DNA from: an uncultured Pseudodesulfovibrio sp.
GTDB taxonomy: Bacteria; Desulfobacterota; Desulfovibrionia; Desulfovibrionales; Desulfovibrionaceae
Assembly (NCBI RefSeq): GCF_963677845.1
Contig: NZ_OY782498.1
Coordinates: 2,487,518 to 2,551,517, forward strand
Direction: 5' to 3'
Length of the DNA: 64,000 nt
Within the stretch, counting starts at the first letter, position 1. The number at the start of each line of letters is the position of its first letter. Positions 1,481-43,450 of this stretch are shown one piece after another. Position numbers and translations under genes: made by a program. A model generated the notes under the pieces. It did no database searches. It was not told the origin of the DNA and worked only from the letters and a program-made list of their open reading frames with translations.

Positions 1481-2335
1481 ATGGCTGGTCCGAAATTCAT
1501 CAAGTACATTCCACCTGTTGTCGCTGCCCTTCAAGAGTTGGGAGGGTCTGGAACCCCTTCTGAAGTTCGAGATATCATCATTCGCAATTTGGAGATTTCA
1601 GAAAAGGCTCTGGGTGAAAAGCTGAATGATGGCACTTCCCGATTTGAGAACCAGGTTGCTTGGGCTCGTTTTTACCTTGTTCATGCGGGGTACATTGGAT
1701 CCTCCAAGCGGGGGATATGGACATTGTCAGAGCAAGGGCTGGACGTTGAAAATGCAAAGGCAATAGATGCCATGCATCTCTTCAAAAAGGTTCGGGACAA
1801 GTTCGAAAAAGAGAAAAAGAAAAACGTTGCTGACTCCGAGGAAATCTCTCCGGAAGATGCAAGCCTGGGGACCGGGAATTCATATAGAAAGAAGCTGCTG
1901 GACAAAATTAAGTCCATGTCCCCTGGGGGATTTGAACGTCTGTGCCAAAGGTTGCTGCGGGAGTCCGGTTTTCAGAAAGTCGTTGTCACCGGTAAAAGCG
2001 GCGATGGCGGCATTGACGGCCATGGGATATTGCAAGTTAACCCGTTCGTCAGCTTTAATATTCTCTTCCAGTGCAAACGGTATAAGGATTCAGTTGCAGT
2101 CTCTCATGTACGGGACTTTCGTGGGGCGATGATGGGCAGAGCTGACAAGGGAATCATCCTCACGACCGGCACGTTTACCCATGACTCCAAGATGGAAGCC
2201 TCGCGGGATGGTGTGCCGCCCATCGAGCTTGTTGACGGGGAGAAGCTTGTCGAGATGTTCGAAGAGCTTGAATTAGGGCTTATCCCGAGAACAGTTTACG
2301 AGGTAGACGACGACTTCTTCGATGAGTTCGAATAG
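1481..2335 (+). CDS. mrr: Mrr-family restriction endonuclease
   Basis: This 284-residue protein has the two-part layout of Mrr, a modification-dependent (type IV) restriction enzyme. Residues 1-95 form the Mrr N-terminal winged-helix DNA-binding domain. Residues 145-265 form the PD-(D/E)xK-like catalytic domain, with FERLCQRLLRESGF, then GDGGIDG (174-180, metal-binding D179) and FQCKR (Q197, K199). A charged linker joins them. The length matches the family (~300 aa). It converges, with no gap, on the last gene of the type I restriction operon. That places a methylation-targeting nuclease beside a methylating system, so the two must tolerate each other's sites. Confidence 0.85.
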   Translation: MAGPKFIKYIPPVVAALQELGGSGTPSEVRDIIIRNLEISEKALGEKLNDGTSRFENQVAWARFYLVHAGYIGSSKRGIWTLSEQGLDVENAKAIDAMHLFKKVRDKFEKEKKKNVADSEEISPEDASLGTGNSYRKKLLDKIKSMSPGGFERLCQRLLRESGFQKVVVTGKSGDGGIDGHGILQVNPFVSFNILFQCKRYKDSVAVSHVRDFRGAMMGRADKGIILTTGTFTHDSKMEASRDGVPPIELVDGEKLVEMFEELELGLIPRTVYEVDDDFFDEFE

Positions 2336-40589: not shown

Positions 40590-40729
40590 TCAAATCCTGA
40601 TGGTCCAAACATGAACTTCAACTCATCTGCACTTAATTATACGCCGCCCAAACCTCATTGGTCACAAAACTTGCCCGTCTCTCCGTCCTAAGCTAAATAC
40701 ATACACTCACTATGAAGGAGAACACAATT

Positions 40730-41251
40730 ATGAACATACATGAGAATCCGGTCCTTGATGCCATATTTTCTCGCCGGTCCATTCGTAAATACACGGAAGA
40801 ACCTGTTTCACGGCAAGACATCACGACTATCCTCGAAGCCGGTCAGTGGGCTCCCAGCGGACTGAATAATCAGCCTTGGCGTTTCTTGGTCATCACCCGC
40901 GGAGATCCACGTCATTCCAAACTGGCCGAATGCACCAAATATGCGCATATAGTCCGCGCTTCTGCAGCAAGTATCTGCGTCGTGCTTGAAAAAGAAGCCA
41001 TGTATAGTGAAATGAAAGACCATCAAGGAGCAGGAGCATGCATCCAGAATATGATGCTGGCCGCTCATGCACTCGGTGTAGGCACGGTCTGGCTTGGTCA
41101 GATCGTCAACGATCAGGCGGCCTCTCTCGGCGCTCTTGAAGTCAATCCCGAAACATACGAACTCCAGGCAGTCATCGCCCTCGGTCATCCCGATCAAAAG
41201 GGAAGCTCTAAGCGCAAAGACTTGTCTGAACTCATGCTGGAGGCATTTTAA
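40730..41251 (+). CDS. Nitroreductase family protein
   Basis: A 173-residue flavin-dependent oxidoreductase of the nitroreductase superfamily: RRSIRKYTEEPVSRQDI, then GQWAPSGLNNQPWRFLV as the FMN-binding region, and IALGHPDQKGSSKRK near the end. GAAGGAGAACAC precedes ATG 40730. It is the first gene of a coupled operon (nitroreductase, MBL hydrolase, selenoprotein candidate, flavoprotein, comF). Its electron acceptor is unknown; it likely uses FMN and NAD(P)H. Confidence 0.9.
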   Translation: MNIHENPVLDAIFSRRSIRKYTEEPVSRQDITTILEAGQWAPSGLNNQPWRFLVITRGDPRHSKLAECTKYAHIVRASAASICVVLEKEAMYSEMKDHQGAGACIQNMMLAAHALGVGTVWLGQIVNDQAASLGALEVNPETYELQAVIALGHPDQKGSSKRKDLSELMLEAF

Positions 41252-41871
41252 TGACCATAAAGACATTCAATCTTGGCCCGCTTCAAACCAATTGTTACGT
41301 TCTGTCGAACGAAAATGAAGCCGTGGTTATCGACCCGGGCGGCAACCCCGACGAAGTCGTGGAATACCTCAAGACCAACAACCTCACCGTGACACATATA
41401 TTGAATACCCATCTGCATTTCGACCACACTGCTGGAAACAGAAAGCTGTCAGAAATTACAGGTGCCCCGATACTGTGCAGTGAAAAAGACGCCGATCTGC
41501 TGGACACATGGCTTGGTCGAGGCGGCGAAAACGGACTGCCGCTTCTGGACTCCTACGAATGGCGGAACGTGGAACCGGGAGAGACACAGTTTGCGGGTTT
41601 CGATTGCACGATTTTCCACACTCCGGGTCATTCCACTGGCAGCCTGACCTTCTATTTCCCCGAGGCCAGAGCAGCCTTTGTGGGCGACTTGATTTTCTAT
41701 CGCTCCATCGGACGCACAGACTTTCCAGGCGGGGATTTGGACGAGCTCAAGCGGTCCGTAATCGACCACATCTTCACGCTGCCCCCCGACACGAAACTGT
41801 TGTCCGGCCACGGCCCGGAGACCACTGTTTCCGACGAACAAAACCACAACTCATTTTTCTCGGAGTTCTAA
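41251..41871 (+). CDS. MBL-fold hydrolase (glyoxalase II-like)
   Basis: A 206-residue metallo-beta-lactamase fold enzyme: NTHLHFDHTAGN (HxHxDH metal ligands), FHTPGHSTGSLTFYF, FVGDLIFYRSIGRTDFPGGD and LSGHGPETTVSDEQNHNSFF. This is the YcbL-type glyoxalase II-like set, shorter than classical glyoxalase II. It hydrolyses thioesters such as S-lactoylglutathione in known relatives; the true substrate is unknown here. The start is coupled to the previous stop (TAATG), and the stop lies directly before the next start. Confidence 0.9.
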   Translation: MTIKTFNLGPLQTNCYVLSNENEAVVIDPGGNPDEVVEYLKTNNLTVTHILNTHLHFDHTAGNRKLSEITGAPILCSEKDADLLDTWLGRGGENGLPLLDSYEWRNVEPGETQFAGFDCTIFHTPGHSTGSLTFYFPEARAAFVGDLIFYRSIGRTDFPGGDLDELKRSVIDHIFTLPPDTKLLSGHGPETTVSDEQNHNSFFSEF

Positions 41872-42117
41872 ATGGGTGAACCAATTCTCATAGATATTCG
41901 CGACAAATGTTGAGGCGTGGGCATGGAGATAGGTTGGTATCTCCGTTTCGCCAAGGCTGATGTCATCGAAGCCAAGGTTTCCCTCAAGGGAGCAGCTCAA
42001 GTGCGTCATGACGAAAATATCTTCCCTGACTGGGAGTTTGCATTCGAGGAGCATGAAGATCATGTAGTCGCACGATTGACCCGCAAAAAACCCCTTTTTG
42101 ACAAAGAGGACTCATGA
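41872..42117 (+). CDS. Putative selenoprotein with in-frame UGA (Sec14)
   Basis: An 81-residue product if the TGA at 41911-41913 is read as selenocysteine. The frame starts at ATG 41872, directly after the MBL-gene stop, with GGAG (41862-41865) 6 nt upstream. It reads through DIRDKC-U-GVGMEIGW to the stop at 42117, which overlaps the flavoprotein start by ATGA. A bacterial SECIS-like hairpin lies right after the UGA (see 41914-41952). Conventional callers would start at GTG 41917 or ATG 41923, which lack a good ribosome binding site. The C-U vicinal pair after a beta strand and before a helix resembles TusA-like folds (DLRG-x-CP-type), but this is inference. Function is unknown; redox or sulfur/selenium transfer is likely from the pair and neighbours. 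Confidence 0.8.
41914..41952 (+). promoter_or_regulatory. Bacterial SECIS-like element
   Basis: Exactly 11 nt after the UGA, a 7-bp perfect stem (GGAGATA 41925-41931 with TATCTCC 41938-41944) closes the loop GGTTGG (41932-41937). A lower GGCG/CGCC stem (41914-41917 with 41949-41952) adds length. Distance and the G-U-rich loop resemble the E. coli fdhF SECIS, which SelB recognises. The element lies within the coding sequence as in other bacteria. Confidence 0.75.
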
Positions 42118-42719
42118 ACAAAAGCGTGATCTATGCATGCAGCCACAGACAAGGCGGCAACTCGGACCGGACGGCCACCCTGCTTGCTCAGGGCGTGGCC
42201 GAAGCCGGTGGGGAAGCTGATATTCTCTACATTCGCAACCACTCTGTCACGGCCTGCCTCGCTTGCGATTATTGCGCAAAAGCAGAATTCAAGCAGGGAA
42301 AGGCGCGATGTACCCTTGGCCAACAGGACGAAGCATATGATTTGTTCGCGCCGCTGCTCACGGCCCGAACCGTATTCTTCACCTCACCAATCTATTTTTA
42401 TCATCTCCCGTCCCTGTTCAAGACATGGATCGACCGAAGTCAACAATTCTGGGCGGCCAAAAATAATGTCGAACCATGGATTGCAGATCTTCCAAAACGC
42501 ACGGCTCACGTCGTACTCCACGCAGGAAGACCTACCGGGAAAAAACTGTTTGAGGGGGCACAAGTCACGCTCAAATACTTCCTGCACAACTTCAATTTTA
42601 CATTGGCTGAACCACTAATATTCAGAGGTATCGACGAGCAAAATGATATGAAGGAACACCCGGATTTCGAACAGCAGATTATCCAGCTCGGTCGGACGGC
42701 ATGGACTACTGCCCGATAG
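42114..42719 (+). CDS. Flavodoxin-fold iron-sulfur flavoprotein-like
   Basis: A 201-residue flavodoxin-like protein. The start GxSHRQGGNSDRTA resembles the FMN phosphate loop (CSHRQGGNSDRT). VTACLACDYCAKAEFKQGKARC gives a CxxCxxC cluster plus a further Cys, as in iron-sulfur flavoproteins; TSPIYFYHLPSLFKTWIDRS is the family's conserved loop. The start overlaps the selenoprotein stop (ATGA). It likely binds FMN and perhaps a [4Fe-4S] cluster, serving as an electron carrier or reductase. Confidence 0.8.
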   Translation: MNKSVIYACSHRQGGNSDRTATLLAQGVAEAGGEADILYIRNHSVTACLACDYCAKAEFKQGKARCTLGQQDEAYDLFAPLLTARTVFFTSPIYFYHLPSLFKTWIDRSQQFWAAKNNVEPWIADLPKRTAHVVLHAGRPTGKKLFEGAQVTLKYFLHNFNFTLAEPLIFRGIDEQNDMKEHPDFEQQIIQLGRTAWTTAR

Positions 42720-43450
42720 TCATGCCCGAATGGTTCCGTTCTCTGGTTCACAAGGCAGGATTGACTGCCAAACGCTGTCCGGTCTGCGGCGTACTCATGA
42801 ACGGTCCTGACCTGATGTGTGAATCATGTAAAGAAGTTATTCCAATTCGTACCGGCGGGTATTGTCCCACATGCGGGGCCATGTTCGGGCTGACAGACGC
42901 ACCGCCTACCCAATGCCCCGAGTGTCGTCGCAACCCACCGCCATGGGATGCACTCTATTTTCATGGCCGGTATGCGAAATCGTTACGCGAACTCATTATT
43001 TCGTATAAATTTTCCAACAACTTCGGGAAAAACCATGTCCTTTCTGCGCTCGCCTGCGCTACATTCAAAGCCCAAAATAAACGGATGCCAGACATCATTA
43101 TTCCGGTGCCGCTGCACACCCGCAGACTGCTCTGGCGCGGCTTCAATCAAAGTCTGGAAATAGCAAAAGCATTAGGTAAAGCATTTGAAAAACCGGTGCT
43201 GAAGAATGGACTTGTTCGCATTCGAAACACTCCACCCCAAACGCAATTCGGACACAAAGAACGACAGCAAAACATCAAAAATGCATTCGCGGCTCAACAA
43301 AAACATATCGCAGGGCAAACCGTATTGCTCGTCGACGATGTATATACTACGGGCGCAACTTTGCGTGAATGCACCAAAACAGTAAAACGATCCGGTGCGT
43401 TAGGTGTTGACATATTGGTTCTGGCCCGGACACAGCAGGAACCATGCTGA
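42701..43450 (+). CDS. ComF family phosphoribosyltransferase-like protein
   Basis: A 249-residue ComF protein. The N-terminal zinc domain has CPVCGVLMNGPDLMCESCKE and YCPTCGAMF with CPEC (double zinc ribbon). The C-terminal PRPP-binding domain has VLLVDDVYTTGATLREC as its signature and IIPVPLHTRRLLWRGFNQS before. It overlaps the flavoprotein gene by 19 nt. ComF proteins are linked to DNA uptake or recombination; the precise reaction is unknown. Confidence 0.9.
   Translation: MDYCPIVMPEWFRSLVHKAGLTAKRCPVCGVLMNGPDLMCESCKEVIPIRTGGYCPTCGAMFGLTDAPPTQCPECRRNPPPWDALYFHGRYAKSLRELIISYKFSNNFGKNHVLSALACATFKAQNKRMPDIIIPVPLHTRRLLWRGFNQSLEIAKALGKAFEKPVLKNGLVRIRNTPPQTQFGHKERQQNIKNAFAAQQKHIAGQTVLLVDDVYTTGATLRECTKTVKRSGALGVDILVLARTQQEPC

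Follow-up and report, generated by a model that had tools for sequence, protein, structure and literature searches.

Gene, reading frame and start

Whether a TGA triplet inside a small gene of an uncultured Pseudodesulfovibrio sp. is an ordinary stop or a codon for selenocysteine (Sec), and what a Sec-containing product of this kind might do, are the questions raised by the locus described here. The gene lies in a stretch of 64,000 nucleotides that was analysed as a whole (the window); the host genome is a single contig of 3.70 Mb, and among named relatives the closest one found is a MAG of Pseudodesulfovibrio (L001), whose version of the protein is 93% identical. If the TGA at 41911-41913 is read as Sec, a single and otherwise open frame runs from 41872 to 42114 and encodes 81 residues (Table 1). 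The original prediction had placed this TGA in frame behind a TGT codon, in a gene with an ATG start and a stop shared with the next gene, and the sequence bears this out: the stop TGA 42115-42117 overlaps the ATG of the following gene (42114), and the TAA of the preceding MBL gene (41869-41871) stands immediately before ATG 41872. The accompanying claim that an inner start would have no ribosome binding site was inexact, as a Shine-Dalgarno-like GAGG (41912-41915) precedes the inner ATG 41923 by 7 nt. Residue 18, the inner Met, is Met in 41 and Leu in 69 of the 149 TGA-bearing loci and is thus not conserved. Three further explanations, namely a translational restart within the gene, a pseudogene and an error in sequencing, were rejected, because the frame is conserved on both sides of the TGA in 149 loci.

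Table 1. Features of the selenoprotein locus in window coordinates; counts of neighbouring genes refer to loci that each reach only about 1.5-2 kb to either side.
Feature	Position	Strand	Basis or occurrence
Nitroreductase-family protein (PF00881), upstream in the same gene run	40712..41251	+	In 88/149 loci
MBL-fold hydrolase (PF00753)	41251..41871	+	Near 114/149 TGA loci, <=150 nt upstream in 83
Shine-Dalgarno-like GGAG, 6 nt before ATG 41872	41862..41865	+	Sequence
Selenoprotein gene, 81 residues, MGEPILIDIRDKCUGVGMEIGWYLRF...	41872..42117	+	Frame read; 149 TGA-bearing loci
Cys13 codon TGT, vicinal Cys-Sec pair	41908..41910	+	Cys in 148/149 TGA-bearing loci
Sec codon UGA, residue 14	41911..41913	+	Aligned TGA in 108/109 loci
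Bacterial SECIS hairpin GGAGATA - GGTTGG - TATCTCC	41925..41944	+	Folding, conservation, redraws
Flavodoxin-fold / FMN reductase-like protein, CxxCxxC	42114..42719	+	Downstream of 123/149 TGA loci
Phosphoribosyltransferase-domain protein (PF00156), which we take to be ComF-like	42701..43450	+	In 118/149 loci

Homologues and conservation of the Sec codon

Within the family of the window organism, the P0001 search returned a match in 108 of 199 genomes, with a TGA inside 107 of these matches and no stop in the remaining one (G182). When the codon aligned with the window TGA was read in the 108 family loci and in L001, it was TGA in 108 cases and TGC in one, L116 of G182, which falls in the clade of a Cys paralogue in the tree; L116 is counted in this 109-locus alignment and excluded from the TGA sets, no TGA motif having been found in it. 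Two motifs were found in L079, and the family motif was retained. A profile built from 44 members matched 144 of 247 sampled Desulfovibrionales genomes, and a hand count from the table gave an in-frame TGA inside the match in 140 of them. The four genomes with no TGA in the match are G630, which holds a Cys orthologue, and G028, G060 and G083, which hold the distant Cys paralogue only. In a draw of 395 genomes across the phylum there were 6 matches, all within the window's own family, and no relative could be confirmed among the viral contigs scanned.

For a closer reading, 40 order loci (L154-L193) were picked from a list of profile matches that already showed stops, 31 being listed with TGA and nine without a stop; in each of the 31 the aligned codon is TGA, whereas the nine are eight paralogues and the G630 orthologue (L156). 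Outside the window's family, 28 of the 35 matching genomes were read in this way, and the other seven are each listed with one TGA. Another ten loci, chosen after having been listed with TGA, were added for the RNA counts (L130, L136, L137, L140, L148, L150-L153 and L200), and the 149 TGA loci comprise these ten, the 31 order loci and 108 from the family reading; the unselected counts are those of the 109 aligned codons and of the 144 matching genomes. Among the 149 loci, Asp8, Sec14 and Leu24 are invariant and Arg10 is present in 138, while the single exception at Cys13 is a Gly in L190, where the TGA is retained. Most members have Cys-Sec-Gly, the residue after Sec being mostly Gly. Homologues hold Sec or Cys at residue 14, a check for which the original prediction had asked, and UGA that is either conserved or replaced by Cys is the pattern looked for in bacterial selenoproteins. 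In seven loci (L056, L060, L061, L067, L069, L083 and L089) the protein has a long C-terminal tail with a GGGRHTGGHGKE-like ending, which is possibly metal binding.

The RNA hairpin

The hairpin behind the Sec codon is as originally described, with a 7-bp stem (GGAGATA 41925-41931 and TATCTCC 41938-41944) and the loop GGTTGG (41932-41937), beginning 11 nt after the TGA. The limits for bacterial SECIS elements (bSECIS), as given in a 2026 review, are a loop of 3-9 nt, a stem of 4-16 bp, a G in the first two loop positions, a loop 16-37 nt after UGA and an energy of at most -7.5 kcal/mol (PMC13188914). The window hairpin lies within them, with a loop of 6 that starts with GG, 18 nt after UGA, and an energy of -10.6 kcal/mol for the 9-bp hairpin. 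The hairpin exceeds what chance would give: among synonymous redraws of its sequence, equal stability was reached in 2 of 3000 and the full set of seven pairs in 132 of 20000, and the bSECIS test is passed by 39 of the 2487 TGA triplets of the window, the Sec codon being among those scanned.

Across the family, the RNA counts were made on the 129 distinct 42-nt stretches that follow the TGA in the 149 loci. When the hairpin is taken by itself, 111 of the 129 pass the bSECIS limits at an energy of -7.5 kcal/mol or below, and the hairpin is weak in five; all seven pairs of the window are formed in 90 and at least six in 118. Residue 20 is Ile, Val or Ala, and at residue 23 most sequences have Tyr or His. 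The letters that pair in the stem change together, with codon choice compensating: an A at the start of codon 20 (Ile) is accompanied by a T at the end of codon 23 in all 45 cases, and a G at the start (Val or Ala) by a final T in 30, C in 53 and G in one. Codon choice at position 20 is likewise skewed, as GTA makes up 44 of 74 Val codons and ATA 38 of 45 Ile codons in the family, against a background of 17% and 12%, respectively, in eight genes of the window. A quick protein tree from which residues 20 and 23 were left out calls for 15 changes at the first letter of codon 20. Supported branches supply six independent pairs, in which the partner letter shifted in the pairing direction 3.9 times on average and in the opposite direction 0.0 times; the tree-corrected covariation has the right direction, but with too few pairs it falls short of significance (sign test, median p 0.125). 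A second covarying pair, the first base of codon 23 with the third base of codon 20, showed too little variation on supported branches. Two genera depart from the usual layout: in g297 (L169, L174, L176, L178, L182, L183 and L188) the stem is shifted to GATGCC-AGTT-GGTATC or similar with the protein frame still aligned, one of these having been folded, and in g21 (L190, L191, L192, L110, L111 and L114) Ser-Phe replaces Gly-Trp in the loop region of the SECIS.

Selenocysteine machinery and a natural exchange to cysteine

The host genome encodes selA, selB, selD and a tRNA-Sec, as the original prediction of a selenoprotein would demand, and all score above the curated cut-offs (SelA 615, SelB 398, SelD 342 and tRNA-Sec 81.8 bits). 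Its selD (L250, G000:C1:3423424-3424353) has an in-frame TGA of its own. In the family sample, with a strong tRNA-Sec match defined as E below 1e-14, 105 of the 169 genomes that have such a match also yielded the gene, one of the 105 (G182) being the paralogue, as did three of 30 with weak matches only; this association gives a Fisher p of 1e-7, which is not corrected for lineage. The three genomes that hold the TGA gene without a strong tRNA-Sec match are 75-84% complete. SelB was above the cut-off in 13 of 15 chosen genomes, and eight of these 13 have no TGA copy among the family and order matches; the gene is dispensable and not universal where Sec is used.

A natural replacement of Sec by Cys occurs in G630, the only one of 141 genomes with an orthologue in which the residue is Cys, the other Cys relatives being remote. 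The orthologue (L156, G630:C7, around 1980-2190, minus strand) reads QACPCTLTRDTSWYLRF, with Cys-Pro-Cys, and the hairpin stem of the sister genomes is broken. No SelB match in G630 reaches the cut-off, and the best tRNA-Sec match, at 46.8 bits, falls just short of the cut-off of 47, a score that resembles cross-matches by other tRNAs (for instance 45.5 bits in G584); since the genome is 85% complete, these absences are no proof. The sisters G584 and G632 have CUG with TGA, tRNA-Sec matches of 79.3 bits and SelB matches of 374 and 383 bits.

Neighbouring genes

The position of the Cys-Sec product between an MBL hydrolase and a CxxCxxC flavoprotein, which had been noticed in the window, proved to be conserved (Table 1). 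The neighbouring MBL proteins retain HxHxDH in 113 of 114 cases, and the downstream flavoproteins have CxxCxxC in 122 of 123. Within the 1.5-2 kb or so covered on each side, 26 of the 149 loci have neither of these partners (L052, L058, L064, L084, L094, L105, L108, L112 and others) and differ in their surroundings, and a fixed partnership is therefore not universal.

Predicted fold and likeness to known proteins

The TusA-like fold suggested for the product from the start gained support from a structure model and structure searches, and weak support from profile comparison. The best AlphaFold model, made from a single sequence, has a mean pLDDT of 80.9, a pTM of 0.70 and the order beta-alpha-beta-alpha-beta-beta, and the remaining four models have pLDDT values of 54-66. 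Foldseek matches of this model include the SirA-like 3hz7, TusA 3lvj and 3lvk, and TsuB/YeeD 8k1r, with TM scores of 0.56-0.66; the TusA/SirA entries have E values of 0.014-0.09, IF3-C, SpoVS and Alba folds score alike among the first 30, and no match reaches E 0.001 or better. Comparison with TusA profiles of related genomes gave probabilities of 49% for the selenoprotein and 43% for its paralogue, neither of them significant. On the model, the product may well have a TusA-like fold, which we consider likely with moderate confidence. PF01206 is absent among the eight Pfam families listed for the 44 members at E up to 1, and by sequence we do not assign the selenoprotein family to PF01206.

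The family resembles TusA/SirA/YedF (PF01206) in size, in the predicted order of strands and helices and in a reactive residue that stands six after a conserved Asp, at the predicted start of helix 1: Asp8-Sec14 here, mostly D..GL.C in the TusA rows of related genomes and mostly D.....C in the paralogue. It differs from them in having Sec for Cys, an extra Cys before it and mostly Gly for Pro after it, in the weak profile match and in the lack of a PF01206 match; the Cys-Pro-x-Pro motif of TusA is absent from the family, and the TusA rows of related genomes read CPQP or CPMP. If the TusA-like fold is true, the question why a site of the sulfur-carrier type uses selenium becomes testable. Mammalian thioredoxin reductase also has a vicinal Cys-Sec pair followed by Gly, in a C-terminal Gly-Cys-Sec-Gly for which a selenenylsulfide is expected, but it is an unrelated protein with the pair in its C-terminal tail. 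Adjacent Cys and Sec are shared, too, with families of motif CU in the 2026 catalogue (PMC13188914), such as SaoL, SaoC, HgcA, MbdU, KCU-star and the Csac_0668 family, which have other domains, and none of their NCBIfam models is among the matches of the 44 members.

A cysteine paralogue

A second, stop-free relative with the motif DxxxVxCGLVP was found in 14 of 15 genomes by a loose-threshold search (E 4e-8 to 0.42), and 25 copies were gathered from several searches. Profile comparison with hhalign gives a probability of 99.1% that this paralogue and the selenoprotein are homologous, over the full length, while the paralogue differs in forming a separate clade (support 98 in a quick tree with few columns) and in its mnmE neighbour. 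An invariant Cys faces Sec14 in all 25 loci tried and a second Cys stands at position 13 in six of the 25 copies, which suggests that the reactive role of position 14 is older than that of position 13; L190, with Gly at 13, is a TGA member that lacks Cys there. The gene lies directly downstream of mnmE in 14 of 25 loci, and three copies tested had no Pfam match. The paralogue is perhaps a second small TusA-like family with a role in tRNA U34 modification. In the host genome it is found at L214 1411-1680 on the minus strand (G000:C1 near 550280-550459), 2 nt behind an mnmE gene (L214 1683-3074), the identity of MnmE being confirmed by NCBIfam and Pfam.

Proposed role and alternative readings

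The frame, its conservation, the SECIS, the Sec machinery and the Sec-to-Cys exchange are established computationally, and Sec insertion at UGA 41911-41913 is close to certain. We consider it likely that 41872-42117 is, taken as a whole, a genuine selenoprotein gene with a TusA/SirA-like product, most likely a sulfur or redox carrier. SelB and tRNA-Sec would decode the UGA with the aid of the hairpin 41925-41944, and the Cys13-Sec14 pair would lie where the first helix starts, with Sec14 at the place of the sulfur-carrying Cys of TusA (Asp plus six residues). Sec14 would then accept sulfane sulfur or attack a disulfide-type substrate, Cys13 would resolve the product as a Cys-Sec selenenylsulfide, the co-encoded CxxCxxC flavoprotein would reduce this selenenylsulfide, and the adjoining MBL hydrolase would act on the same substrate chain. 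Both this role and the partners are inferred, and for the carrier function we put the chances at about even. It is a more tentative suggestion, to which we give somewhat less than even weight, that an order of sulfate reducers uses a Sec-dominated TusA-like sulfur carrier, with Sec14 carrying or reducing sulfane sulfur for the MBL hydrolase and the iron-sulfur flavoprotein.

Other readings of the TGA fit parts of the evidence. An ordinary stop, with a shorter protein made from GTG 41917 or ATG 41923 and an accidental piece upstream, would agree with the GAGG 7 nt before ATG 41923 and with the 66-aa ORF that the standard code gives from GTG 41917. It is nevertheless very improbable, as protein conservation extends to the part ahead of the TGA (Asp8 in 149, Arg10 in 138 and Cys13 in 148 of 149 loci), the inner Met is present in just 41, and column 14 of the loci read holds TGA or a Cys codon, with Cys in a genome where SelB was not found. 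Selenium-free use of the UGA, be it readthrough by insertion of one of the standard amino acids or a regulatory stop, deserves hardly any weight: readthrough would keep the frame open just as well, but the hairpin of bSECIS geometry, the Sec machinery and Cys as the replacing residue all speak for selenium.

A different alternative accepts the selenoprotein and changes its task, in that Cys-Sec would bind a metal or carry selenium (delivery to SelD or tRNA selenation) and would shuttle neither electrons nor sulfur for the neighbours. TusA acts in tRNA thiolation, the paralogue lies directly behind mnmE, a gene of tRNA U34 modification, in 14 of 25 loci, and both neighbours are missing in 26 of 149 loci, all of which is in line with this alternative; against it, 123 of 149 loci have the flavoprotein immediately downstream, and all but one of these flavoproteins (122 of 123) retain CxxCxxC. 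We regard this alternative as rather unlikely.

Relation to earlier catalogues

The original prediction called the protein undescribed, and against the selenoprotein lists and the Pfam and NCBIfam models checked it remains so. The window protein has no Pfam or NCBIfam match at E up to 1, single members among the 44 give chance-level matches (best E 0.0058 in Pfam and 0.032 in NCBIfam release 20 of June 2026), and a sequence search of the PDB returned one match, with E 1.7. A TusA-like or DxRxxCUG family does not appear in the available part of the 119-family catalogue of 2026 (PMC13188914, Table 1), nor does such a protein in that of the 2006 selenoprotein lists for two Desulfovibrio species (PMC1794560), and no paper was found that links selenoprotein, Desulfovibrio and TusA. 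The family may already have been described under another name, for example in Haft and Tolstoy 2025 or in the supplements of deep-Sep; this is improbable, as the 2026 review table, which includes families credited to Haft and Tolstoy 2025 and cites both that work and deep-Sep, lists no such protein in the part available (PMC13188914), and as the 44 members have the above chance-level matches only in NCBIfam release 20. The gene thereby adds a selenoprotein family found in 140 of 247 sampled Desulfovibrionales genomes that lies outside the standard annotation models.

Standard searches look for longer genes with close Cys homologues and may for that reason have missed the family. According to the deep-Sep report, Cys-containing homologues now seem to exist for every known selenoprotein, and selenoproteins that lack them may be lost at its homology filter (PMC12013277). 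In neither Desulfomicrobium orale nor Salidesulfovibrio onnuriiensis, with 6 and 10 'known' genes, did that work report a new selenoprotein (PMC12013277). The genomes in our sample that we take to be these two species carry a TGA-bearing match, which in the first was also read.
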